Of a stretch of 64,000 bases of DNA, positions 28,751-39,841 are shown piece by piece (the first letter of the stretch is position 1; every line of letters begins with the position of its first letter). The translations under genes were made by a program, and so were the position numbers. The stretch lies in NCBI RefSeq assembly GCF_002753895.1, contig NZ_NJER01000003.1:310001-374000 (forward strand), read 5' to 3'. The notes beneath the pieces are model-generated. The model was given only the letters and a program-made list of their open reading frames with translations. It had not been told where the DNA came from and did no database searches. The stretch is from Halobacteriovorax sp. JY17. GTDB taxonomy: Bacteria; Bdellovibrionota; Bacteriovoracia; Bacteriovoracales; Bacteriovoracaceae.

Positions 28751-29526
28751 TTGGTCGCATTGAATAACTTGTGCAATTTAATAATCACTTCTGACTTCAC
28801 ATGCTGAATTGGTACAAATTGCGCCCATTTCCTATGACGTTCTCTCGATGTGCTTTTTCTAATTTTGTTTGTAAAAAAAGCAGGGTATTTCTTTGCAGTA
28901 TCTGCCGAAAAGACCGCGTACCAATCGTAAAACAAATTCACATCTTTAAAAAGAAGCTCATCTAATATTTCCAAAGTTTGCTCAACGAGAACTCTCTTTA
29001 GGGTAAAGAAGTTTGTTTTCTCTAGCGAGTCCTTTGAAATCTCCTTACTAATAAAGGTGGCTACATAGTACTTTGCAAAAGCAATTCCAGAGTCAGTCAT
29101 TGGAGTGTCGTAATTTTCCATGGCAGCGTATGTATTATCAAGAACCAGAGCTCTATAAACTCCCTCTCTACTTCCACCTTGTGTTATAACATTCATCCAT
29201 TTAGCGACATCATTATCATTTGGTTTTACTCTTCTCGCAGCTTCATAAACTTCAAAGAGAAATGATAAGTTTGCTTTATTCATTTGTTCTTTAGTAATAT
29301 TCGTTTTTACCTTATCTACATACTCAGCTCTTGTAGACTTAGCGTCTTTATTTACCTTTGGGATTTCTGGAAGTTTAATGCTTTCTTCTTTTGATCCAAA
29401 TAGCTTTACAGCAATTTCATCACCCAAGAATTGTTCCACATAAGGTCTTAACTTATCTGAAATCCCCTCTGCTTGAACGTTAGAAATACTTAAAGTAATC
29501 ATTGCTGCCATTAAAATTTTCTTCAT
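28744..29526 (-). CDS. Exported helical protein, unknown function
   Basis: 260 residues with a signal peptide (about 1-19, ending VQA). The mature chain is predicted helical with many Lys and Asp, no cysteine and no membrane segment. A conserved-looking core around TFISKEISKDSLEK, LVEQTLEILDELLFKDVNLFYDWYAVFSADTAKKYPAFF is followed by a basic stretch RKSTSRERHRKW. I do not recognise a family. It follows the mini-DHp gene by 4 bases on the same strand, so it may be the third gene of the NtrC operon and either a target or a periplasmic partner of that system. Confidence 0.6.
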   Translation of the reverse strand: MKKILMAAMITLSISNVQAEGISDKLRPYVEQFLGDEIAVKLFGSKEESIKLPEIPKVNKDAKSTRAEYVDKVKTNITKEQMNKANLSFLFEVYEAARRVKPNDNDVAKWMNVITQGGSREGVYRALVLDNTYAAMENYDTPMTDSGIAFAKYYVATFISKEISKDSLEKTNFFTLKRVLVEQTLEILDELLFKDVNLFYDWYAVFSADTAKKYPAFFTNKIRKSTSRERHRKWAQFVPIQHVKSEVIIKLHKLFNATNQ

Positions 29527-29530
29527 TTCA

Positions 29531-29728
29531 TTAACCTTTCTTTTTAATAATATTTTTTGCGACTTCCCAGTCGCTTTCTAATTTTTTTGCTTTCTCCAAA
29601 ATAAGAGGAAGAATTTTTTCGACAATTTCAGGATTCGTCTTCCAATTATCGTTTATTAAGGATAAAGATTGCGAAATAGCGGAAAGACCTGAATTTATAT
29701 CGTGAATGACTTTACTCTGATCTTCCAT
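29531..29728 (-). CDS. 65-residue stand-alone DHp-like (histidine kinase H-box) protein
   Basis: A 65-residue protein that looks like only the dimerisation/phosphotransfer hairpin of a histidine kinase: helix 1 has VIHDINSGLSAISQSLSLI, close to the HisKA H-box (H-D/E-x-x-x-P-L), and helix 2 is KILPLILEKAKKLESDWEVAKNII. The usual Pro after the His is Gly here. There is no ATPase domain. Its start overlaps the stop of the NtrC-type regulator gene by 17 bases and GAGGA precedes it, so the pair is translationally coupled. Possible roles: phosphotransfer protein, phosphatase hairpin, or dimer adaptor for the receiver. A non-phosphorylated structural hairpin is also possible. Confidence 0.65.
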   Translation of the reverse strand: MEDQSKVIHDINSGLSAISQSLSLINDNWKTNPEIVEKILPLILEKAKKLESDWEVAKNIIKKKG

Positions 29729-31100
29729 CTTTATTTATCCTCTGTGAAATTCGATAAAATGCACTATTTGAAATTTTCAAAACACTTAGTGTTTTTCTAA
29801 CTTTATCTTCATTACTCTTCAATGTAGATATGACAGCGTCTTCCTCAACTTTATCTAAAAAAGACTTCAACCCATTCATTTGAATAAATTCTAATTGCAT
29901 TTTGCTTAGAATACTTCCCTCTATGATTGGAGTAAATTCGACTTCAGCAATATTTTCAATGTGACGACTCACCCCTAGAATATGTGCAGGAAGGTCTTTA
30001 GCTTCTATCACCCCATGAGACTTTGCCTGTAACATCTCTACAACCTTTCGAAGCTCTCGAATATTTCCGGGCCATGAGTATTGAATTAAAATATTCTTAG
30101 CTTCTGAATTTAGAACAACTCTCCTCTTTCCAAGCCCCAAGAAAAACTTTAGTAGAAGAGGAATATCTCCCTTTCTCCTCTCAAGTGGGGGAAGATCAAT
30201 ATTAAATCCTTCAATTCGATAGTATAAGTCTTCTCGAAAACTTCCTTCCTTTACCATCTCTGCTAAATTTTCGCAGGTAGCACTTACCAATTTAAAATTA
30301 GATTTTACTAATTTCTCACTTCCTAATGGGTAGAAAGATTTTTCATCTATCGCTCTTAATATTTTCTTCTGTAGAAGCATTGGCATCGTTGCAATTTCAT
30401 CCAAGAAAAGTGTTCCTCCATCTGCGAGTTCAAACTTTCCTTTCTTACTTGTCTCTGCTCCAGAGAAAGCTCCTTTGGAATAGCCAAACAATTCTGCTTC
30501 TAATAGATTCTCTGGAATTTCTGAACAATTTAAATGAATAAACTTATCTTTATTTTCAAAAATCAGTTCATGAATGAGCTTGGCAATAAGAGTTTTCCCT
30601 GTACCGGTTGGACCTTTTAAAAAAACAGGTTTATTGCTTGCGACAACTTCATTTATCACTCTTAAATTTTCTATGAGAGAGTCATCCTGAGTCACATATC
30701 TAGTTCCAAAGAAGTTTCGAAGTGTAGACTCTTTAGAGAGTACTTTGAATTTCCTCAAAACTAGGGCAAGGGCCTCTTTATCAAAAGGTTTCGACAGATA
30801 ATCTTCACACCCTCTTTTATAAGCCTCCGCTATATTTGAATCCTCTTCCCTTCCAGAGAGAACAACTGGGTAAGTTCCTTTCTTTTTAACAATTGGAATT
30901 AAATCAAGACCTGCCAAATCTCTTTCTAAATCCAAATCAATCCAAGCAAGATCAAACTTTTCATTTTCAAGTAATTCTTTTGCTTCATTTGAATTTTTTG
31001 CTTCCCTTACAAGTCCATGCTCTTTTAGTAAAGTCACTAGATTCAATCTGGATAATGCATCATCTTCTATAACAAGAAAATTCAATACCTTCTTACTCAC
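29712..31100 (-). CDS. Sigma-54-dependent response regulator, NtrC family
   Basis: 462 residues: receiver domain (about 6-120, IEDD, phospho-accepting Asp in AWIDLDL, KPFD Lys), AAA+ domain (about 135-370) with Walker A GPTGTGKT, the sigma-54 contact loop GYSKGAFSGAE (GAFTGA with Ser for Thr), Walker B GGTLFLDEI and the LPPLERRKGDIPLLL segment, then a Fis-type helix-turn-helix at the end (EEDAVISTLKSNEDKVRKTLSVLKISNSAFYR). It would activate sigma-54 promoters after phosphorylation. The start is GTG at 31100. No full kinase is adjacent; a mini-DHp protein is encoded immediately downstream. The divergent 1645-residue lipoprotein gene is a candidate target. Confidence 0.93.
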   Translation of the reverse strand: MSKKVLNFLVIEDDALSRLNLVTLLKEHGLVREAKNSNEAKELLENEKFDLAWIDLDLERDLAGLDLIPIVKKKGTYPVVLSGREEDSNIAEAYKRGCEDYLSKPFDKEALALVLRKFKVLSKESTLRNFFGTRYVTQDDSLIENLRVINEVVASNKPVFLKGPTGTGKTLIAKLIHELIFENKDKFIHLNCSEIPENLLEAELFGYSKGAFSGAETSKKGKFELADGGTLFLDEIATMPMLLQKKILRAIDEKSFYPLGSEKLVKSNFKLVSATCENLAEMVKEGSFREDLYYRIEGFNIDLPPLERRKGDIPLLLKFFLGLGKRRVVLNSEAKNILIQYSWPGNIRELRKVVEMLQAKSHGVIEAKDLPAHILGVSRHIENIAEVEFTPIIEGSILSKMQLEFIQMNGLKSFLDKVEEDAVISTLKSNEDKVRKTLSVLKISNSAFYRISQRINKDGRSE

Positions 31101-31288
31101 TTCTAAGACCCCAATAATTAAACGTTTTATCTCTTATTTAATTGTATTTCTCTCCTGAGTTTTAAACAAATTTATATTTTAGGGAATACTTTTAACCCCT
31201 TGAAAGTTTAGAGAAGATTTAAAATATACTTTTTTTCTAAAAAAAATGAATAGTAGAGAATTTCAGTGCCCTAAATAACAGGCAATTT

Positions 31289-31306
31289 CGATCTGGTAAT
31301 AGATCG
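31289..31306. other. Inverted repeat in the lipoprotein leader
   Basis: CGATCT (31289-31294), six bases, AGATCG (31301-31306), extended by T/A pairs at the ends. It lies in the 298-base region between the divergent NtrC-type gene and the lipoprotein start; a weak TTGAAA/TATACT pair (31200 and 31225, 19 apart) is upstream. Could be an operator or an RNA hairpin; no T-run follows. Confidence 0.3.
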
Positions 31307-31398
31307 GAACTAGGCAAGAATTTCCACTCAAGGCCTTGATATTAAAGTATGTTCTTAAGTTTCTAAATATCCGCTCAGAAAGTGTCGATAATAAGACT

Positions 31399-34300
31399 AT
31401 GAAAACTTTATGGAAGATATCGACATTTTTAGTACTTTTATTCACCCTGACAGCGTGTATGCCGGATAGCCTCACGAAGTTTAAAGAGTCACCTACCAAA
31501 AAAGGAGATGACACAACTTCAAGTAGTGGTGGTTCTGGAGAAACAGACCCTTCTGCTCCCGTAGATGAGATTGTCACAGTATTATCCAATCTTCAAATTC
31601 CACAATTTGCAGACGCTATAAATGGTGACTTAATCTTGATTCAACTTGAGACAATTGGAACTTTAAAAGCAGGCGACACCATCTACTCTTCAGCAACAAT
31701 GTTCAAAACTTCAGACAGAGGTGCAGCCAGAGTCTTACAGGTTGCCCCTGATAATAATAGTACTTCAGGAAAAGTTCTCGCTAGGATCACTCTTGGAGCA
31801 ATTAGTGAAACAAATATTTTTAGAGATGGATACTTTATTGATAACTGCTCCCTAGGTTATGCGAACTGCTCCGTTGGTTCTTCTACAGCATCACGAATTT
31901 TATCGACATCGCTGTATTTTGACCCTTCGGGAGCACCTTCTTTTTCAAGAACAATAACAGTCGATGCGACTAACCCTCTTCCACTAGAATACGGTGTTCA
32001 ACCAAACCTACCTCTTGGTGTTTCCTTAAATACTGAGACAGGAGAGATAACTGCACCAGTTGTGCCTTTTACAATCGCGAACACTTTTGATTTTTCAGAA
32101 TATACCTTCTTCTCAAAAGTTACCAACGAGTTTGATGGAGAATTTGATGATCCAGAAGAAGTTACTGATGCAATCTTTAAGATTAGCTCACGAGTCGGAA
32201 CACAAACAACGGCCATCTCAAATTACAATTTTGATTATAAATTATTAGATAGTGATCGCATTCTTTTAAAGGTTGCTAATACAACAGGTATCTACGCCAA
32301 TGATGTTCTCTACTCTTGTATTTCAACAAATTTTACAAGCTGTAATACCAATACTGAGTACACTGGAATTGGGACAGTTTACTATGTCGATACTGCGAAT
32401 AAAACTCTCTACATCAACGTTGATGATGTAAATGGTGCCGCGAACCCTAGTCAGTTTCTAGACGGATACTACCTTCATAAATCAAATGGATCACTCTTTA
32501 CTGTTCAGACTGGTATTCCTTCTAGACTTTATAACTCTAGTACTACAGGAATATCCTTTTCACCAGAATGGGAAGTTGACCCTGTAGGAGATGGTATAAC
32601 ACCTCTCTTTAATATTGACTCAGTCATTCCTGGACTTACAATTGACGCAAACTCGGGTGTTATTTCATTAACTGCACCCATTCAATTAAGTACAGAAAAT
32701 CAATACACTGTAACTGCAATTGATTCTTCAACTGGTGAATCAATTGCATCATATGTGTTTAAACTTGGGGTATTTGACCCTCCTAGTGGTATCACTTATT
32801 CAGGATCTTCATTTAGTTTAGGAATTGGAAAGGATAGTGTTAATCTAAATCCAGTACTCTCTCCTGTAAACTTTGCTGATACATCAAGTGTCTACTATAG
32901 TGTCACAGGTGCCCTTGTTGCTGGAGTTTCATTTTCTGAAAGTGATGGGATTTTTACAGGATCACCAACTGCTTATGACCCAGGAACAACTGTAACGATT
33001 GAAGGATACTATCCAAGAGCAGGGTCTACCCCTTTTGCTTCAACAACGATAAACTTTAAAGCAGGAACTCCGATCGATGAATTTTATTATCCACAGCTCG
33101 CAGGTGAATACCTTCAACTCACAGTTGGAGACGCTAGAGTCTTTACCTTAGGAGATAATGTTTCATCTTCAAATGGAGCAACAGGTGTTATTTCTTATAT
33201 CGATGCTGGAACAAATCAAGTTGTTATTCAAGTCTCATCTACACTAACGGGAGCGCAAGTCTTTAAGAGAAATGACTTCTTAGACAATGCCATCACTTAC
33301 TCATTCTTAAAAACTCAAGTTGCTGATGTCGTGCATATTTTCAATTCTGCAACTGGAGTACCTTCAAGACTACCTACTCTATATAATGACTTGAGTCCTA
33401 CAACTCTTTCATTGGGAGAAGTAATATCTTACGACATCTCACCAACACTTCCTTCTGATTTTACGATGTTTAATAGCACAACAGGAGAAATTGATGGAGA
33501 TGCATCTCTACCTCTCTCCCTCACAACTCCCAAGACATTTGTAATTCAATTAACAAATTCAATTGGTGAAATTGTTGCTAAAGAGTATAAATTCCTCGTA
33601 AAAAGTGCTCCTATTCAAGCGACAATTGGTCGCTACCAATTCATTAGAATTTCACAAAACTTTAATAACTTCTATATTGGTTCCCGTTTTCAAACATCTG
33701 GTGGGACAAAAGGACGTGTTGTACACAAAATTGGAAATTCTACATCTGGAGGTTTACTCGTAGATGCCCAAGGAACTATTGAAGCGGGAGAAGATATTGA
33801 TAACGTTATCCCATACTATGCTGCAGAAGCTAGAGTTCAAAAGTACTTATTAATTACTTTAAAAAATGCTACGACATTAGCTGCCTCCAATATTATTACA
33901 ACGACGGATGGTGATACAGCACAGATTCAAAGTGTTGTGACTGGTGAAAATAAAGTCTACGCCTTAGTTTCAAGTGGAGACTTCTCTGCTGGTGAAATAA
34001 TAAATGCAGGAACAGCTACTGAGACTATAGTAATGGATGTCGTTAGCAAGCACTACGCATCTCATATTTTAAGACTTACAGATGCATCTCCTCTTGAGAT
34101 AGGGGGCTATATATCCTCCAACCTTGGACTAGGTAGTGCCGACGTTATCTTTAAAGAGGACACGAATGACTATGCCTATATTCAACAATTAAGTGGAGAA
34201 TTTAGACAAGCTGAGAACTTTGACAACACTGTCACTTACGCAGGACCAGAATCAACTATTTCTCGAATTATTGGACCAATTGTAAAAATAACTTCTTCAG

Positions 34301-36336
34301 GAAATGCAGGAGGAGCGGAAGTTACCTCCAGTACTAATTCATTCATTGAAGGTTCTACAATTACAGCCTACCAAGCAGGTCATAAATCTTCGGGTATTGT
34401 TCTAAATACATCTGGAAATGATTTCATAGTAGACGTTAAAGATATTAAGGGGACAAACTCTTTCGAGATAGGAAACTCTCTAGATGATGCGACTCCATTT
34501 AATATCGCACTTGACTCTGCAAACACCGTTACAGCAATTGCCACTGGAAATGTTATCCCTCTCTACGTTGGAGAAGAAACTTATATTGAAGGTAAGATAA
34601 AAGGAGTTTTCAGTAACGTTAAACTTACTCCAGAAACTCTCCCACAGGGACTTTCTTTTGATGGCACTACAGGAGTAATTTCCGGTACACCTAACGAGCC
34701 GCAAGAAAAAACAACTTATACTATTACCTACTCATCACCTGGTGATGCTGATGCAGTTTTTACTTTTGAACTCGTTACCTATAATCAATTTGAATTAATT
34801 CAAGAAACCGAACAGGCTTCTTCATATATTCTTCATAAAGAAGGACAGGGCTATGGAACAACCTCTTGTAAGATTTTAAGTTCACAGGTGTCTCCAACTA
34901 ACACTTCAAAATACCAGATGAATGATATTGTCTGCAGACTAGAAGGACAGGAGCTTGATCTCTACAATAGAGGTGCCGCACTTAAAGTAAAGTCTGGGGC
35001 CGGAATGTGTGAATATGTTAGATATATTCCAGAGGCTCACAAAAGCTATCCCACAGGAAGAACAAGATCTTACTTTGTTCAATACAATGAATTTACTGAT
35101 GCCTGTATGCCTTTTGGTGGAAACCCAGCGCTTCCTCAAATAGATATTGTAAATCCAATAACAGGTGGAGCCTTAACAATCATGGATACTGCAGTAGATC
35201 ACACAAATGGACCTCTCTCCGTTCAATCTGGAGGAGTTATAAATTTTGGTGAAAAAGCATGTGTTGCAGGTGATTGTTTACAACAATATGGTAAAGCAGG
35301 GGCAACAAACGCGTGTCAATTCAACCATACAACTCCGAAAGGAGACCTTAAGTGTGATGAAGGTAGTAAGTTCACTTCTACAGTGTCATGTGAAGAAAAA
35401 ACCGATGGATACTGCGCCTGTGTAGCAACAGACTGGGTAGAAGAAGAGTGTGGAGGAAATAAGAATGCTTGTATCAGTGGTGGAATCAGAAGTACTGGAT
35501 TAACAATAGGTCTAGAAAATTCAGAAATAGTAAATTCATTTGCTGGAGTTGTTCAAGAGTTTACAGTAAAATCACCACAGTCATACGGACTTGGAAACAA
35601 TACTGTCATCGCAAATACGACAAGAGCATCTCAATGTAGAGACGTTTCTCAGAACTATGCTTTTGACAGCTACGATGATACCGGAATTCTCTCTACCTTT
35701 ATAGGGAATTACTCAAACTACAATACGACTGACTTTACTGCAAGTGACTTTGAAGCGAACGTTAGCCCGAATGGTGGGAACGAAGCAAACGCTAATAAGT
35801 TTTACGAATACCACTGTCTAGACGCTGCATTTAACGTAAAAGCTAGAATTAGACTACAAATAAGAGACTGGGATAAATCCTTTAATCCAGAAACACCAAA
35901 TATTGAAGTGTTTGACAACGGCGGAGCCATATCGAATATTGATGATTCTACAACAACGTGTTTTGGACTTAATTGTGACCAGAAGTGGGATTGGGATACA
36001 TTGATTGATGCTTTAGCGGCAGCTTCAAAACCAAACTACACAGTTGCAGCAGGATCATGCTCTAGAGGTGCATATGCTGCTCCAGCTGGTACAGTTAGAA
36101 CAACTGAATCTAGTACAACAATCCACACATCACTACCTCTAAACTCTCAGCTTATGCCAGGTATGATTGTAAAAGTTGGGACAGACCTAACTTCTGGAGG
36201 GGAGTTTAGATACTTTACAGTAGAATCTGTCAGTAGCGATAGATTTACGGTAACAACTCCTGCCGACATGACCCTCAGTGGGCTAGATTGGGAAATCGCA
36301 AGAGACTTCCCATTTCCTATGGACCATACTAATTAA
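31399..36336 (+). CDS. Large multidomain lipoprotein with alternating Ig-like and repeat domains
   Basis: 1645 residues from the ATG at 31399, which sits right before the signal peptide; the lipobox is LTAC, with Cys at about residue 20, followed by a Ser/Gly/Thr-rich tether. At least five putative He_PIG/cadherin-like Ig units are visible by the G-x-S/T-x-x-x-x-T/S-G-x-I-x-G/A-x-P pattern (GVSLNTETGEITAPV, GLTIDANSGVISLTA, GVSFSESDGIFTGSP, TMFNSTTGEIDGDA, GLSFDGTTGVISGTP). Between them lie about seven copies of a 60-85-residue beta unit with V-x-x-G/T...V...G-x-F-x-x-x-D/E-x-I. The C-terminal 450 residues are Cys-rich (CGGNKNAC, CVAGDCLQ). A surface anchor, adhesin or prey-contact role is plausible. 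Convergent with rimO, overlapping 8 bases. Confidence 0.85.
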   Translation: MKTLWKISTFLVLLFTLTACMPDSLTKFKESPTKKGDDTTSSSGGSGETDPSAPVDEIVTVLSNLQIPQFADAINGDLILIQLETIGTLKAGDTIYSSATMFKTSDRGAARVLQVAPDNNSTSGKVLARITLGAISETNIFRDGYFIDNCSLGYANCSVGSSTASRILSTSLYFDPSGAPSFSRTITVDATNPLPLEYGVQPNLPLGVSLNTETGEITAPVVPFTIANTFDFSEYTFFSKVTNEFDGEFDDPEEVTDAIFKISSRVGTQTTAISNYNFDYKLLDSDRILLKVANTTGIYANDVLYSCISTNFTSCNTNTEYTGIGTVYYVDTANKTLYINVDDVNGAANPSQFLDGYYLHKSNGSLFTVQTGIPSRLYNSSTTGISFSPEWEVDPVGDGITPLFNIDSVIPGLTIDANSGVISLTAPIQLSTENQYTVTAIDSSTGESIASYVFKLGVFDPPSGITYSGSSFSLGIGKDSVNLNPVLSPVNFADTSSVYYSVTGALVAGVSFSESDGIFTGSPTAYDPGTTVTIEGYYPRAGSTPFASTTINFKAGTPIDEFYYPQLAGEYLQLTVGDARVFTLGDNVSSSNGATGVISYIDAGTNQVVIQVSSTLTGAQVFKRNDFLDNAITYSFLKTQVADVVHIFNSATGVPSRLPTLYNDLSPTTLSLGEVISYDISPTLPSDFTMFNSTTGEIDGDASLPLSLTTPKTFVIQLTNSIGEIVAKEYKFLVKSAPIQATIGRYQFIRISQNFNNFYIGSRFQTSGGTKGRVVHKIGNSTSGGLLVDAQGTIEAGEDIDNVIPYYAAEARVQKYLLITLKNATTLAASNIITTTDGDTAQIQSVVTGENKVYALVSSGDFSAGEIINAGTATETIVMDVVSKHYASHILRLTDASPLEIGGYISSNLGLGSADVIFKEDTNDYAYIQQLSGEFRQAENFDNTVTYAGPESTISRIIGPIVKITSSGNAGGAEVTSSTNSFIEGSTITAYQAGHKSSGIVLNTSGNDFIVDVKDIKGTNSFEIGNSLDDATPFNIALDSANTVTAIATGNVIPLYVGEETYIEGKIKGVFSNVKLTPETLPQGLSFDGTTGVISGTPNEPQEKTTYTITYSSPGDADAVFTFELVTYNQFELIQETEQASSYILHKEGQGYGTTSCKILSSQVSPTNTSKYQMNDIVCRLEGQELDLYNRGAALKVKSGAGMCEYVRYIPEAHKSYPTGRTRSYFVQYNEFTDACMPFGGNPALPQIDIVNPITGGALTIMDTAVDHTNGPLSVQSGGVINFGEKACVAGDCLQQYGKAGATNACQFNHTTPKGDLKCDEGSKFTSTVSCEEKTDGYCACVATDWVEEECGGNKNACISGGIRSTGLTIGLENSEIVNSFAGVVQEFTVKSPQSYGLGNNTVIANTTRASQCRDVSQNYAFDSYDDTGILSTFIGNYSNYNTTDFTASDFEANVSPNGGNEANANKFYEYHCLDAAFNVKARIRLQIRDWDKSFNPETPNIEVFDNGGAISNIDDSTTTCFGLNCDQKWDWDTLIDALAAASKPNYTVAAGSCSRGAYAAPAGTVRTTESSTTIHTSLPLNSQLMPGMIVKVGTDLTSGGEFRYFTVESVSSDRFTVTTPADMTLSGLDWEIARDFPFPMDHTN

Positions 36337-37705
36337 GAGTAACGACTCTACCAACTAAATCATAATCTAAAACTTCGGTGATCTCGACTTTTACGAGATC
36401 TCCGGCTTTTAGGCCTTCTAGATCACTATCATTTATAATAACTTTTCCATCAATATCTGGAGCTTGTCCAACATGACGCCCTTGAATTAAAAGTTCTGTT
36501 TCTTCGTGAGCCCCTTCAATAAGAACGTCTATAACTTTTCCTTTATAACTAGCATTGAGCTCTCTAACTATTTCTCTTTGAACTTCAAAGAGCTGATCAA
36601 AACGATCATCAATTGTTTCTTGGTCTACTTTATCTCTAAGTCTATAAGCAGGTGTCCCTTCTTCGTCTGAATATCTAAAAATTCCTAAGTGATTAAACTT
36701 AGCTTTCTTTACACCCTCTAAAAGAGTCTGAAAATCCTCTTCACTCTCTCCAGGAAAACCTACAATAATTGACGTTCTAAGAACGATACCAGGATTTCTC
36801 TCACGAAGTCTTTCGATTCTATTCATGATTTCATCACCAGTAATTTTTCTATTCATCCTCTTTAAAACGTTTGTTGAAAAATGTTGAACAGGCATATCAA
36901 GGTAGCTACAAATCTTTTTACTATTTCTCATCTGCTCAATAACTTCATCCGTTAATTCATCTGGGTAGAAGTAAAATAGACGAATCCAATCTATCCCCTC
37001 AATACTTTCTAATCCATTTAAAAGTGCGAAGAGATTATTATTCTCATCAAGATCAACACCGTAATCAGAAAGATCTTGAGAAATAAGATTCAATTCACGA
37101 ACACCAGACTCTGCAAGGTTTTGGGCCTCTGTGACTAATGACTCAACAGATCTAGATCTTAATCTTCCTCTAAGCGCAGGAATAATGCAGAAGGTACAAT
37201 TTCTATTACAGCCTTCTGAGATTTTAAGCCATGCCGTATAGAATGGAGAAGTATTTAATCTTGGATCAAACTCCGTGTGGATAAACTTTGGAATTTCTAC
37301 GAATGATTTCTTCTCAAGCTTATTGTCTTCTAAAGCCTTAAGAAGAGGAACAATTTTATTATACTCTCCTGTTCCAATAAACATATCAACTTCAGGAAGA
37401 GATTCTTCTAACTGATCTGAATATCTCTGCGCCATACAACCAGAAACAACAAGGGCCTTACAATTTCCCTGCTCTTGATCTTTATAGTCAGCAAGATCTA
37501 AAATCGTTTCAATTGACTCTTGTTTTGCAGCCTCAACAAATGAGCACGTATTTACAACTATGACCTCAGCAGTTTCAGGTTCAGGGACAACCTGAAATCC
37601 ATCTAATCCCATATAGCCAAGCATTACCTGCGAATCGACTAAGTTCTTAGAACATCCTAATGAAGTGAAAAATACAGTACGGTTTTCAAACTTTGTTGTT
37701 TGCAT
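36329..37705 (-). CDS. rimO: Ribosomal protein S12 methylthiotransferase RimO
   Basis: A 458-residue radical SAM methylthiotransferase that adds a methylthio group to Asp of ribosomal protein S12. N-terminal UPF0004 cysteines: SLGCSKN, VNTCSFV and SGCMAQR bind one cluster; ISEGCNRNCTFCIIPALRGRLRSR carries the radical SAM CxxxCxxC near residue 165; a TRAM RNA-binding domain closes the protein (about 390-458). PALRGRLRSRS and DLSDYG separate RimO from the tRNA enzyme MiaB. ATG start with AAGGGA upstream. Gap to the neighbour on the left overlaps the convergent lipoprotein by 8 bases. Confidence 0.94.
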   Translation of the reverse strand: MQTTKFENRTVFFTSLGCSKNLVDSQVMLGYMGLDGFQVVPEPETAEVIVVNTCSFVEAAKQESIETILDLADYKDQEQGNCKALVVSGCMAQRYSDQLEESLPEVDMFIGTGEYNKIVPLLKALEDNKLEKKSFVEIPKFIHTEFDPRLNTSPFYTAWLKISEGCNRNCTFCIIPALRGRLRSRSVESLVTEAQNLAESGVRELNLISQDLSDYGVDLDENNNLFALLNGLESIEGIDWIRLFYFYPDELTDEVIEQMRNSKKICSYLDMPVQHFSTNVLKRMNRKITGDEIMNRIERLRERNPGIVLRTSIIVGFPGESEEDFQTLLEGVKKAKFNHLGIFRYSDEEGTPAYRLRDKVDQETIDDRFDQLFEVQREIVRELNASYKGKVIDVLIEGAHEETELLIQGRHVGQAPDIDGKVIINDSDLEGLKAGDLVKVEITEVLDYDLVGRVVTLN

Positions 37706-37834
37706 AGAATTCCCTTAAATTTAAAAATAACATGGCAACTTGTATTACATATTCTTCCAATAATCAAAGGGTTGTGTAATATTTCAACGAATTAGTCGAT
37801 TGCTTTTTTTAGCGATGAGAAATAGACTTAAGCC

Positions 37835-39841
37835 ATGGAAAACAAAAGCTTTTATATCCTTATTTTAGTGACCTTATTCTACTCCTCGTGTGCCACAAAG
37901 GTGATGAGTCCTCCAAATCCAAATTTTTTAAATTTGAGTGGCAGCCTTGAGCTTTCAGAATCTGATATTTTGGCCCAGAAATTCCATAAGGCTAATTTAG
38001 ATTTTTCAAATAAGTTCTATCAGAAAGCCTGTCCAGAGTTTGAAGAACTATCAAATAATAAGAAATTTCCGCTTAGAAATATTGCTCTTATTCGAGCCCT
38101 TAAGTCATGTAACTGGACTGTTCCTAAGTTGATATCTGTTTGGGAGTCTCATGAAATCGAAGATTGGCTCTCTCAAGATTATTACCAAATATCTTATGAA
38201 GTCGCAAAGTCCAAGAACATTAAACTCTGGCAAGCAAAGCATAACTTCTCGCTCTATCCTTTTGAAGTACGAAAAGAAGAAAAAGAAAAATATATTCGAA
38301 ATGCTCTTGAAATAGCTGAGGACGAACAAATCACAGAGCTAGTGACAAAGTATAATGAAGAACTTCAAAAAATTTCACCAAGATTTATCATTGCCCCAAG
38401 CGATGACCAGCTCTATGAAGTCGCGAGAGATTTTGAAAGAGCAAGAGAATATGACAACGCAATTAAAACCTATGAATCCATTATAAAAAATCAAAATGTA
38501 GATTTAAAAACAAAAATTAATTCATGGCACAGAATAACTAGAGTTTTTAAGAATAAGAGAAGAAAAGATCTTGCACAAAGTTCTACAAAGACACTTGTCA
38601 ATTGGATAGAAAAAAACAGAGAATCAATAGGGAGCCAATATAATTTTGAACTTGTTGAAGCAAGAACGAGGTGGGCAAGAGCAACTTGGACTGAAAATAA
38701 TCTTCCTCTAGCAAAGAAAATACTAACGAATACTCTAAAAAGGCACTCTCCTACGGACTCTCAAGGTGCTACTATTCACTACCTACTTGCAGGAATTGCA
38801 AAAGAAGAAAAGAAGATTAAATCTGCAATTTACTATCTCAACCAATCTATAAAACTTAGCGATAGAGAGCAGAAGGAAGATATTCTATGGCAACTCTCTT
38901 GGCTCGAATATAAGAGAAAGAATTACCAAGTATCGAGTAAGCTTCTCCTTGAACTTCACTCAGATTATAGCGACACTTCAAAGTATAGTTACTGGCTTGC
39001 AAAATCTCTTTCGAGAGAAAAGAAAACAAAAGAGTCTCTTCCTTATTTTTCGAAAACAATTGAGCTTAATCCCTATGGATACTATGGGATTCAGGCAAAG
39101 AGAGTTCTTGGGCTAAAGAGTGATTTCAACTTAGAGGTTATTAAATCAACAGAAGATAATCTATTTGAATGGTTGATTGCTCTTGGAGAATACGACTCTG
39201 CAAAGAAGTACCTAGATGGTCTTATTTATTCTAGTAAGTCTGATTCAAGTAAACTCTCTCTTTTAGAGAGAATGAATAGGGCCAGAAATTTTCAAGGAAG
39301 TCTTCGAACATTCTTTAATATGGATGAAAATCAACGTGGTGAAATTGAGAAGAAATTTATTCAATATATTTATCCAAAGCCAAGTTTAGAATCTAAATAC
39401 TTAGAAAATAAGTTTGATAACAACCTAGCGTATTCTATTATCAGACAAGAGTCTGCGTTCAACAGGGAAGCAAGAAGCTTTGCGGACGCTTATGGACTAA
39501 TGCAAGTAATCCCCTCAAGAGCTCAAAAACTCGCGAAGAAGCACTCTATCCCATACCAAGACACTGATGACCTCTACAATATCGATGTGAATATGGCACT
39601 CGGAGTTCACTACCTAGAAGATTTAAAAAAGATGTTTCAATACCTTCCAATGGTAATCGGCTCTTATAATGCTGGAGAAGCGGCCATGAGTAGATGGGTT
39701 AAATCCCGCTACCAAGGAGATATAGAAATTTTCATTGAAGATATTCCTTACCAGGAAACAAGAAAGTATATAAAGCTAGTTCTTAGAAATTACTTTATTT
39801 ACCAAGAACTACCTATTGATAAGAAAGTATTTATCTATTAA
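37835..39841 (+). CDS. Soluble lytic murein transglycosylase (Slt-like) lipoprotein
   Basis: A 668-residue periplasmic enzyme that cleaves peptidoglycan glycan strands. A signal peptide is followed by a Cys at about 20 in FYSSCATK, a possible but not canonical lipobox. The body is built of alpha-helical TPR-like repeats (about 60-470), as in the doughnut of Slt70. The catalytic SLT domain is C-terminal (about 535-650): SIIRQESAFN with the catalytic Glu, AYGLMQVIPSRAQKLA, and SYNAGEAAMSRW. In a predator such enzymes may also remodel prey wall (inference). Monocistronic, with a 129-base upstream gap shared with divergent rimO; its end overlaps lolA by 11 bases. Confidence 0.92.
   Translation: MENKSFYILILVTLFYSSCATKVMSPPNPNFLNLSGSLELSESDILAQKFHKANLDFSNKFYQKACPEFEELSNNKKFPLRNIALIRALKSCNWTVPKLISVWESHEIEDWLSQDYYQISYEVAKSKNIKLWQAKHNFSLYPFEVRKEEKEKYIRNALEIAEDEQITELVTKYNEELQKISPRFIIAPSDDQLYEVARDFERAREYDNAIKTYESIIKNQNVDLKTKINSWHRITRVFKNKRRKDLAQSSTKTLVNWIEKNRESIGSQYNFELVEARTRWARATWTENNLPLAKKILTNTLKRHSPTDSQGATIHYLLAGIAKEEKKIKSAIYYLNQSIKLSDREQKEDILWQLSWLEYKRKNYQVSSKLLLELHSDYSDTSKYSYWLAKSLSREKKTKESLPYFSKTIELNPYGYYGIQAKRVLGLKSDFNLEVIKSTEDNLFEWLIALGEYDSAKKYLDGLIYSSKSDSSKLSLLERMNRARNFQGSLRTFFNMDENQRGEIEKKFIQYIYPKPSLESKYLENKFDNNLAYSIIRQESAFNREARSFADAYGLMQVIPSRAQKLAKKHSIPYQDTDDLYNIDVNMALGVHYLEDLKKMFQYLPMVIGSYNAGEAAMSRWVKSRYQGDIEIFIEDIPYQETRKYIKLVLRNYFIYQELPIDKKVFIY

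Follow-up and report, generated by a model that had tools for sequence, protein, structure and literature searches.

Introduction

What bacterial predators use to choose their prey, or what their phages and kin recognise on them, is largely open. Surface proteins with He_PIG (PF05345) Ig domains offer one architecture for comparison, and in Borrelia variants of the surface lipoproteins OspC and VlsE arise by recombination. The attack-phase promoters of Bdellovibrio bacteriovorus have been the subject of a study that we take to be that of Karunker et al. In the excerpted part of that paper, FliA is named and FliA-like sites of the form TTAAG-N16-CCGATA are given for 92 of 140 attack-phase promoters (PMC3627812). 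Bdellovibrio also makes mosaic adhesive trimers (MATs), which the excerpted text describes as trimeric fibres with a beta-rich domain of ~130 residues after the signal peptide and with S74 in 13 of 21 (PMC10769870), and a MIDAS adhesin, Bd0875, is a proposed predator adhesin that bears a lipobox (PMC11003981, in excerpt).

Here we describe a lipoprotein gene found in a 64,000-nucleotide stretch of DNA (the window, meaning the whole stretch analysed). Its product has Ig-type stalk domains in common with the He_PIG surface proteins, but it interleaves them with a second repeat family and ends in a Cys-rich head. In the Borrelia lipoproteins recombination generates variants; here, where recombination is the proposed cause, the mature proteins exceed 1000 residues, are only 27-30% identical, and differ between species of one genus. 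It has a lipobox, like Bd0875 as excerpted (PMC11003981), but lacks a D-x-S-x-S motif and any VWA match at E<=1; unlike the MAT fibres, as excerpted, it is a lipoprotein with a rod of beta domains and no S74 match at E<=1 (PMC10769870). In the literature searched on hypervariable predator lipoproteins, we recognised no paper that treats this protein. The host is presumably a predator, judging from the names attached to its relatives: ten named relatives come from metagenome-assembled genomes labelled Halobacteriovoraceae, Halobacteriovorax, Bacteriovorax, Bdellovibrio or Bdellovibrionales, which places the window in an organism of Bacteriovorax type within the Bdellovibrionota.

A large lipoprotein gene and its neighbours

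The ORF is real and runs on the forward strand from an ATG at 31399 to a stop codon ending at 36336, encoding 1645 residues (an alternative in-frame TTG start at 31336 would give 1666). Its first 20 codons (31399-31458) specify a signal peptide with the lipobox LTAC at residues 17-20, so that the lipid-bearing Cys is residue 20, followed by MPDSLT; signal peptide, lipobox and Cys together are the features that mark a bacterial lipoprotein. The pattern C[MLVI]P[DE][ST] recurs at the starts of 45 relatives, the window protein not counted. In E. coli, lipoproteins of the outer membrane are those whose lipid Cys is not followed by Asp; in the window protein the next residue is Met, although the rule is unproven for this phylum.

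Upstream and divergent lies an NtrC-type response regulator gene (29712-31100, reverse strand) with Response_reg and Sigma54_activat domains (Pfam), just as the first-pass annotation had proposed. We considered and rejected sigma54 control by this neighbour: between 29095 and 32052, intergenic region included, there are no sites with one mismatch or fewer. Rfam gave no match at gathering threshold over 29000-38500, nor did a simple scan for sigma70 promoters and terminators over 31050-31450. Downstream and convergent is a gene that we take to be rimO (36329-37705, reverse strand), which served as a conserved flank marker. The two genes overlap slightly at 36329-36336, where the stop codon of the lipoprotein ORF falls within the 3' end of this rimO-like gene, and a small overlap is seen again in a number of relatives.

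Two repeat families form the stalk

The stalk consists of 12 small domains, five He_PIG-type Ig domains (I1-I5) and seven beta units (T1-T7), and the order of modules in the whole protein is T-I-T-I-I-T-I-T-T-T-T-I, then the head, then a last module, T8. All lie on the forward strand, with boundaries placed by profile comparison (for I2 and I3 together with the stalk model): T1 at 31621-31938 (about residues 75-180), I1 at 31945-32256 (183-286), T2 at 32257-32574 (287-392), I2 at 32575-32808 (393-470), I3 at 32809-33087 (471-563), T3 at 33088-33333 (564-645), I4 at 33334-33624 (646-742), the four consecutive units T4-T5-T6-T7 at 33625-34488 (743-1030), and I5, the clearest He_PIG domain, at 34489-34773 (1031-1125). 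He_PIG is the sole Pfam family above its cut-off in this protein (E 2.8e-11; 44.2 bits against a cut-off of 24), matching two stretches, the better of which (residues 1053-1124) lies in I5; 22 of the 29 aligned members match it at E<=0.1.

When a six-sequence stalk profile was compared with itself, off-diagonal matches with a period of ~210 residues reached E 1.5e-24, whereas five column-shuffled profiles did no better than E 0.41-0.82 off the diagonal. Profiles of the individual modules split into the two families: strong pairs among T1-T7 reach E 1e-5 to 6e-12, with several pairs that involve T4 or T7 weak or non-significant (T4-T2, T7-T2), and I1-I5 are linked at E 3e-3 to 4e-9. Comparisons across families mostly exceed 0.1, the lowest being 0.017 (T1 against I2). 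The large lipoprotein with Ig-like and other beta repeats described in the first-pass annotation is thus borne out by the lipobox, the He_PIG match and the two separate families of module profiles. The alternation that it described is real, as the ~210-residue self-match attests, but imperfect, with I2-I3 and T4-T7 forming runs. Its repeat motif V-x-x-x-G-x-F-x-x-G-E-x-I does not survive in literal form, which has no match in the window protein or in any of the 32 stalks scanned; a relaxed form does, with five overlapping matches at three places in the window protein (mean 0.15, and at most 4 in any one, over 500 shuffles) and at least one match in 14 of the 32 stalks.

The model of the stalk (pLDDT 75.5) resembles the binding region of the SraP adhesin and cadherin-type Ig rods, including cadherin pairs (best match 4m02, Z 10.1, rmsd 2.4, 85 aligned), in match lists that barely probe the T units. 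By sequence, the window protein has no match in the PDB, and the T-unit profile has three matches to PDB sequences (E 0.35-1.8, including AfpX13 at 1.8) that we read as chance.

A conserved Cys-rich head

The head domain (34774-36078, forward strand, about residues 1126-1560) is supported by an iterated profile, by Cys conservation and by a genome survey. The Cys-rich C-terminus noticed at first pass is evident from the counts: the last 520 residues contain 18 Cys, whereas there are 4 in the 1105 residues between the lipid Cys and the head. Across the 44 heads compared, four Cys never vary and five others hardly do. The head is probably disulphide-bonded. With the lipobox, the Cys-rich head makes a cytoplasmic location unlikely.

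An iterated profile of residues 1126-1645 recovers 66 of 68 homologous ORFs, the same set on which it was built. Among 290 genomes sampled across the phylum, it finds matches in 122 (E<=1e-5), which fall under 12 family codes. Most matched genomes have one head gene, as do the window's own genome and each of the five genomes of its genus. Several matches occur in G014 (in tandem), G011 (on two contigs), G026 (extra weak matches) and G030 (two neighbouring ORFs), and the head lies in pieces on two contigs in G047, G220 and G297. G014, whose tandem pair (L081) measures 554 and 884 residues, is one of few genomes with more than one head.

Outside the window's family, head ORFs are mostly about 375-520 residues long, with some shorter and one of 757. 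Within it there is a stalked class of about 1100-2000 residues and a short, stalkless class. For 34 of the 68 head ORFs, the retrieved stretch also contains a rimO-like gene or its neighbour g28744. The short class has another shared neighbourhood, with genes presumably for transporter-, ferredoxin- and dUTPase-like proteins, whose clusters occur in 16, 14 and 14 of 25 short loci, respectively. A search for the POT transporter of that neighbourhood at E 1e-30 in five genomes, the window genome included, gave no match and is uninformative. By eye, a probable outer-membrane beta-barrel gene lies near the short head genes in 15 of the 25 loci (for example L093, L071, L069 and L062).

No relevant Pfam or NCBIfam match was found for the head in 29 members, and the head profile matches no PDB sequence. 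The model of head plus T8 has low overall confidence (pLDDT 48.9), and outside T8 it is too weak for a fold to be interpreted. A 2368-residue lipoprotein-like ORF of another family (L099, in G112) matches the stalk part only and has no head.

A promoter-like element at a fixed place

Just upstream of the gene is a sigma28/FliA-like element (31364-31392, forward strand): TAAA at 31364-31367, 18 nt, then CGATAAT at 31386-31392, six nucleotides before the ATG. With the usual promoter spacing, this position would put the mRNA start at or next to the ATG. We compared 46 upstream regions, the window's included, from genes that have the lipobox pattern and for which 110 nt of upstream sequence could be taken. 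CGATAAT is present in 40 of the 46, in 38 of these 13-15 nt before the ATG, and TAAA stands 17-18 nt before CGATAA in 32. Control ORFs (421 others of at least 150 residues from the same loci) have CGATAAT within 110 nt in 3 cases and TAAA-N14..18-CGATAA in 1; base shuffles of the 46 upstream regions give means of 0.57 and 0.10, respectively. The 43 nt at 31356-31398 are 93, 91, 72 and 77% identical to those of the congeners G001, G003, G002 and G004, against 58, 55, 50 and 46% for 31101-31300.

The -10-like CGATAAT is thus strong and the -35-like TAAA is present in 32 of 46; the element is similar to the attack-phase promoters of Bdellovibrio, but its TAAA differs from the consensus TTAAG-N16-CCGATA given in the excerpted source (PMC3627812). 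Genome-wide, TAAA-N17/18-CGATAA occurs at 69 sites against 52 for a reversed control, and TAAA-N15..17-CGATAAT at 6 against 19; because this enrichment is weak, the pattern alone predicts little and cannot name a regulon. What appears to count is the fixed place of the element before the lipoprotein gene in many genera, whose species are related and so are not independent cases. An attack-phase regulon of FliA-like sites in the window's own genome is possible, with the pattern weakly enriched over the control. Of the 69 sites, we inspected 30 (L140-L169), 16 of which had a suitable ORF, and scanned 10 of the proteins. Several of the genes that the pattern precedes are signal-peptide or lipoprotein-like, and the product of one (L149) has a bacterial cadherin-like domain; others encode an HD-GAF protein (L157) and a sigma54 activator (L148).

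In the short head class, CGATAAT is found in 0 of 23 upstream regions and TAAA-N14..18-CGATAA in 1 of 23. The occurrence of the head as short stalkless ORFs across the phylum means that its core role may be unrelated to prey. This distribution, and the absence of the promoter-like element from 23 short-class genes, point to an older role of the head, to which the stalk was added.

The mature region conflicts with its flanks

Between the window and G003, six flank genes are singly 77-95% identical (rimO 95%; rimO, g28744 and g27695 joined, 86%) and the signal peptide 93%, against 27% for the stalk and 30% for the head. For G001, the corresponding values are 84% for the joined flank and 93% for rimO, with stalk and head at 66% and 61%. 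When 29000-39000 of the window was compared by blastn, DNA similarity to G002, G003 and G004 ended at 31508-31532, within the Ser/Thr/Gly-rich linker (31459-31620, forward strand) that follows the signal peptide, and restarted at 36329-36339, at the stop codon and overlapping the 3' end of rimO; similarity to G001 was continuous through the gene except for one gap (35094-35599).

A three-gene flank tree of 29 genomes recovers the genus as monophyletic (100/100) and places the window beside G003 at 87/65 only. In a tree of 32 heads, which contains long branches, the window and G001 group instead with G048, G037, G080 and G070 (99/95), and the five congeners as a clade are rejected (p-AU 3.6e-8). 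In G080, G047, G037 and G070, rimO adjoins g28744 with no lipoprotein gene between them, and in G048 a lipoprotein gene lies between the two in the opposite orientation. Given the conflict between flank and head trees, the positions of the boundaries and this comparison of loci, the promoter and signal peptide of the window gene look native, and the mature region that follows them looks foreign. The mature protein seems to be an exchange cassette, the whole exported part being replaced between related species, and we infer that the discordance between flanks and mature region arose by recombination.

A second genus (g14) was chosen for its many genomes with long ORFs and for a pair already seen to be discordant (G017-G083; flank 86, stalk 32). 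Eight of its species with flanks carry the lipoprotein gene at the rimO locus (1108-1580 residues); the stretch from a ninth, G274, has no flank genes. In identity matrices, rho against rimO is 0.61-0.72 for NtrC, g28744, g27695 and SLT (SLT covering 7 species), and against NtrC it is 0.76-0.84 for the latter three. For the signal peptide the correlation is weak (0.47, p 0.02, with rimO; 0.34, p 0.06, with NtrC). Stalk (-0.15 and -0.05) and head (-0.24 and -0.02) are uncorrelated with rimO and NtrC, respectively, and the stalk follows the head (rho 0.42, p 0.013). The flank tree splits the eight species 4:4 (100/100), and a mature-region tree constrained to the same division is worse by 480 log units (p-AU 7e-55, a nominal value because the group was named after the distances were seen). 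In G210 the stalk alone may have been exchanged: the stalk tree rejects G210 with G268 (p-AU 2e-45), and the head tree is compatible with either grouping (p-AU 0.18, 0.12).

Proposed mechanism and alternatives

Our preferred reading, held with moderate confidence, is an attack-phase outer-membrane lipoprotein that carries a head on a long rod and whose mature part is exchanged as a cassette. It draws on what can be read in the DNA itself (lipobox, module order, conserved head, the conflict between mature region and flanks, and the conserved promoter-like element). The lipoprotein would be made in the free-swimming attack phase from a presumably active sigma28/FliA-type promoter and anchored in the outer membrane by its N-terminal lipid, and the Cys-rich head, probably exposed at the surface to a putative ligand, would be held away from the membrane on its rod of 12 small beta domains. 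Small beta domains measure about 4 nm, so the rod would be an estimated 40-50 nm long, and the periplasm is narrower than that. Recombination would exchange the mature part from species to species and leave in place the native promoter and signal peptide upstream, and rimO downstream. The likeliest reason for such exchange would be selection on cell-surface contacts, be they with prey, phages or kin.

Which of these partners selects is a separate matter: it is possible, and we hold it tentatively, that the swaps are driven by the predator's phages or by kin recognition and not by prey. The anatomy would be the same, and whole-cassette replacement would suit an escape or tag system as well as a change of prey range.

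We regard it as unlikely that the conflicting trees reflect ancient duplicates and differential loss, that is hidden paralogy, in place of recombination between species. The four genomes in which rimO adjoins the next gene with no window-type gene there, and the reversed gene at the rimO locus in G048, would fit such a history. However, the window gene has the promoter-like element, signal peptide and locus of its own genus, each of the genus's five genomes yields a single match, and eight species of the second genus carry the gene at one locus.

The first-pass annotation had likened the non-Ig repeats to phage-tail domains, and a domesticated phage-tail-derived attachment machine, its proposal extended, strikes us as rather improbable. 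Part of the likeness may hold, in a module that it had not described: T8 (36079-36333, forward strand, about residues 1561-1645), a small barrel-like last module whose part of the head-plus-T8 model is better predicted (pLDDT about 67-81) and whose modelled fold appears to resemble phage-tail modules. Its best PDB matches are the phage LKA1 tailspike (4ru4; Z 9.0, rmsd 3.0, 85 aligned), the Mystique tail tube (Z 8.6) and the JBD30 baseplate (8rk3; Z 8.4, rmsd 2.1, 73 aligned), values of 8-9 that lie near the stated background of 7-8. Against a viral library, the head-plus-T8 model matches phage proteins, two at E<=0.001 and neither with a named function. Tail fibre or minor tail PHROGs are matched by 3 of 20 orthologues scanned singly (L055, L014 and L013), in modules comparable to T8; among the 29 aligned members, phrog_9922 (minor tail) is matched in 4 and phrog_1980 (tail fibre) in 3 (best E 2e-9), and Gp10_D3 in 1 (E 0.002), a member outside the 14 scanned singly against Pfam. 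The window protein itself, however, matches no PHROGs family at E<=1, and neither it nor the protein of L014 (from G003) has a tblastn match at E<=0.01 among 50,697 phage records. T1-T7 have no significant tie to T8, whose profile matches neither them nor I1-I5 (lowest value 0.025). The stalk model does match phage proteins in the viral library, many of them multi-Ig and some of them tail proteins, with E as low as 1.3e-21; TM-scores are near 0.1, however, and rmsd exceeds 25, and we read these matches as generic Ig rods. The lipoprotein anchor, too, speaks against a tail-derived machine.

Least probable, and already disfavoured, is the view that no exchange took place and that this is a fast-evolving, weakly constrained envelope protein whose signal peptide and promoter are kept by function: stalk and head identity is low even in same-type congener pairs (G002-G004: flank 77, stalk 51, head 44), but G001 keeps its 66/61% at a flank identity of 84% where G003 has 27/30% at 86%, the heads of the window and G001 group with other genera, and a second genus has uncorrelated flank and mature distances and conflicting trees.

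Implications for predator recognition

Returning to the lipoprotein, its hypervariability and its attack-phase-type promoter-like element make the surface or prey-attachment role suggested at first pass likelier, and the protein is likely to be a contact point with prey, phages or kin. A lipoprotein whose exported part is apparently exchanged between species is a direct candidate for recognition of any of the three, and it is a single gene whose loss would bear on prey range, phage sensitivity and self-recognition. The head family, with no relevant match in Pfam, NCBIfam or PDB-sequence searches, is a new conserved envelope protein. We tentatively suggest that Bdellovibrionota have one main head receptor per genome and that it sits on a long stalk in the Bacteriovorax branch, where the attack-phase promoter and lipidation signal in front of it are invariant and serve as a docking cassette, such that swapping in the mature receptor of another species may change prey range, phage sensitivity or self-recognition in one recombination step.
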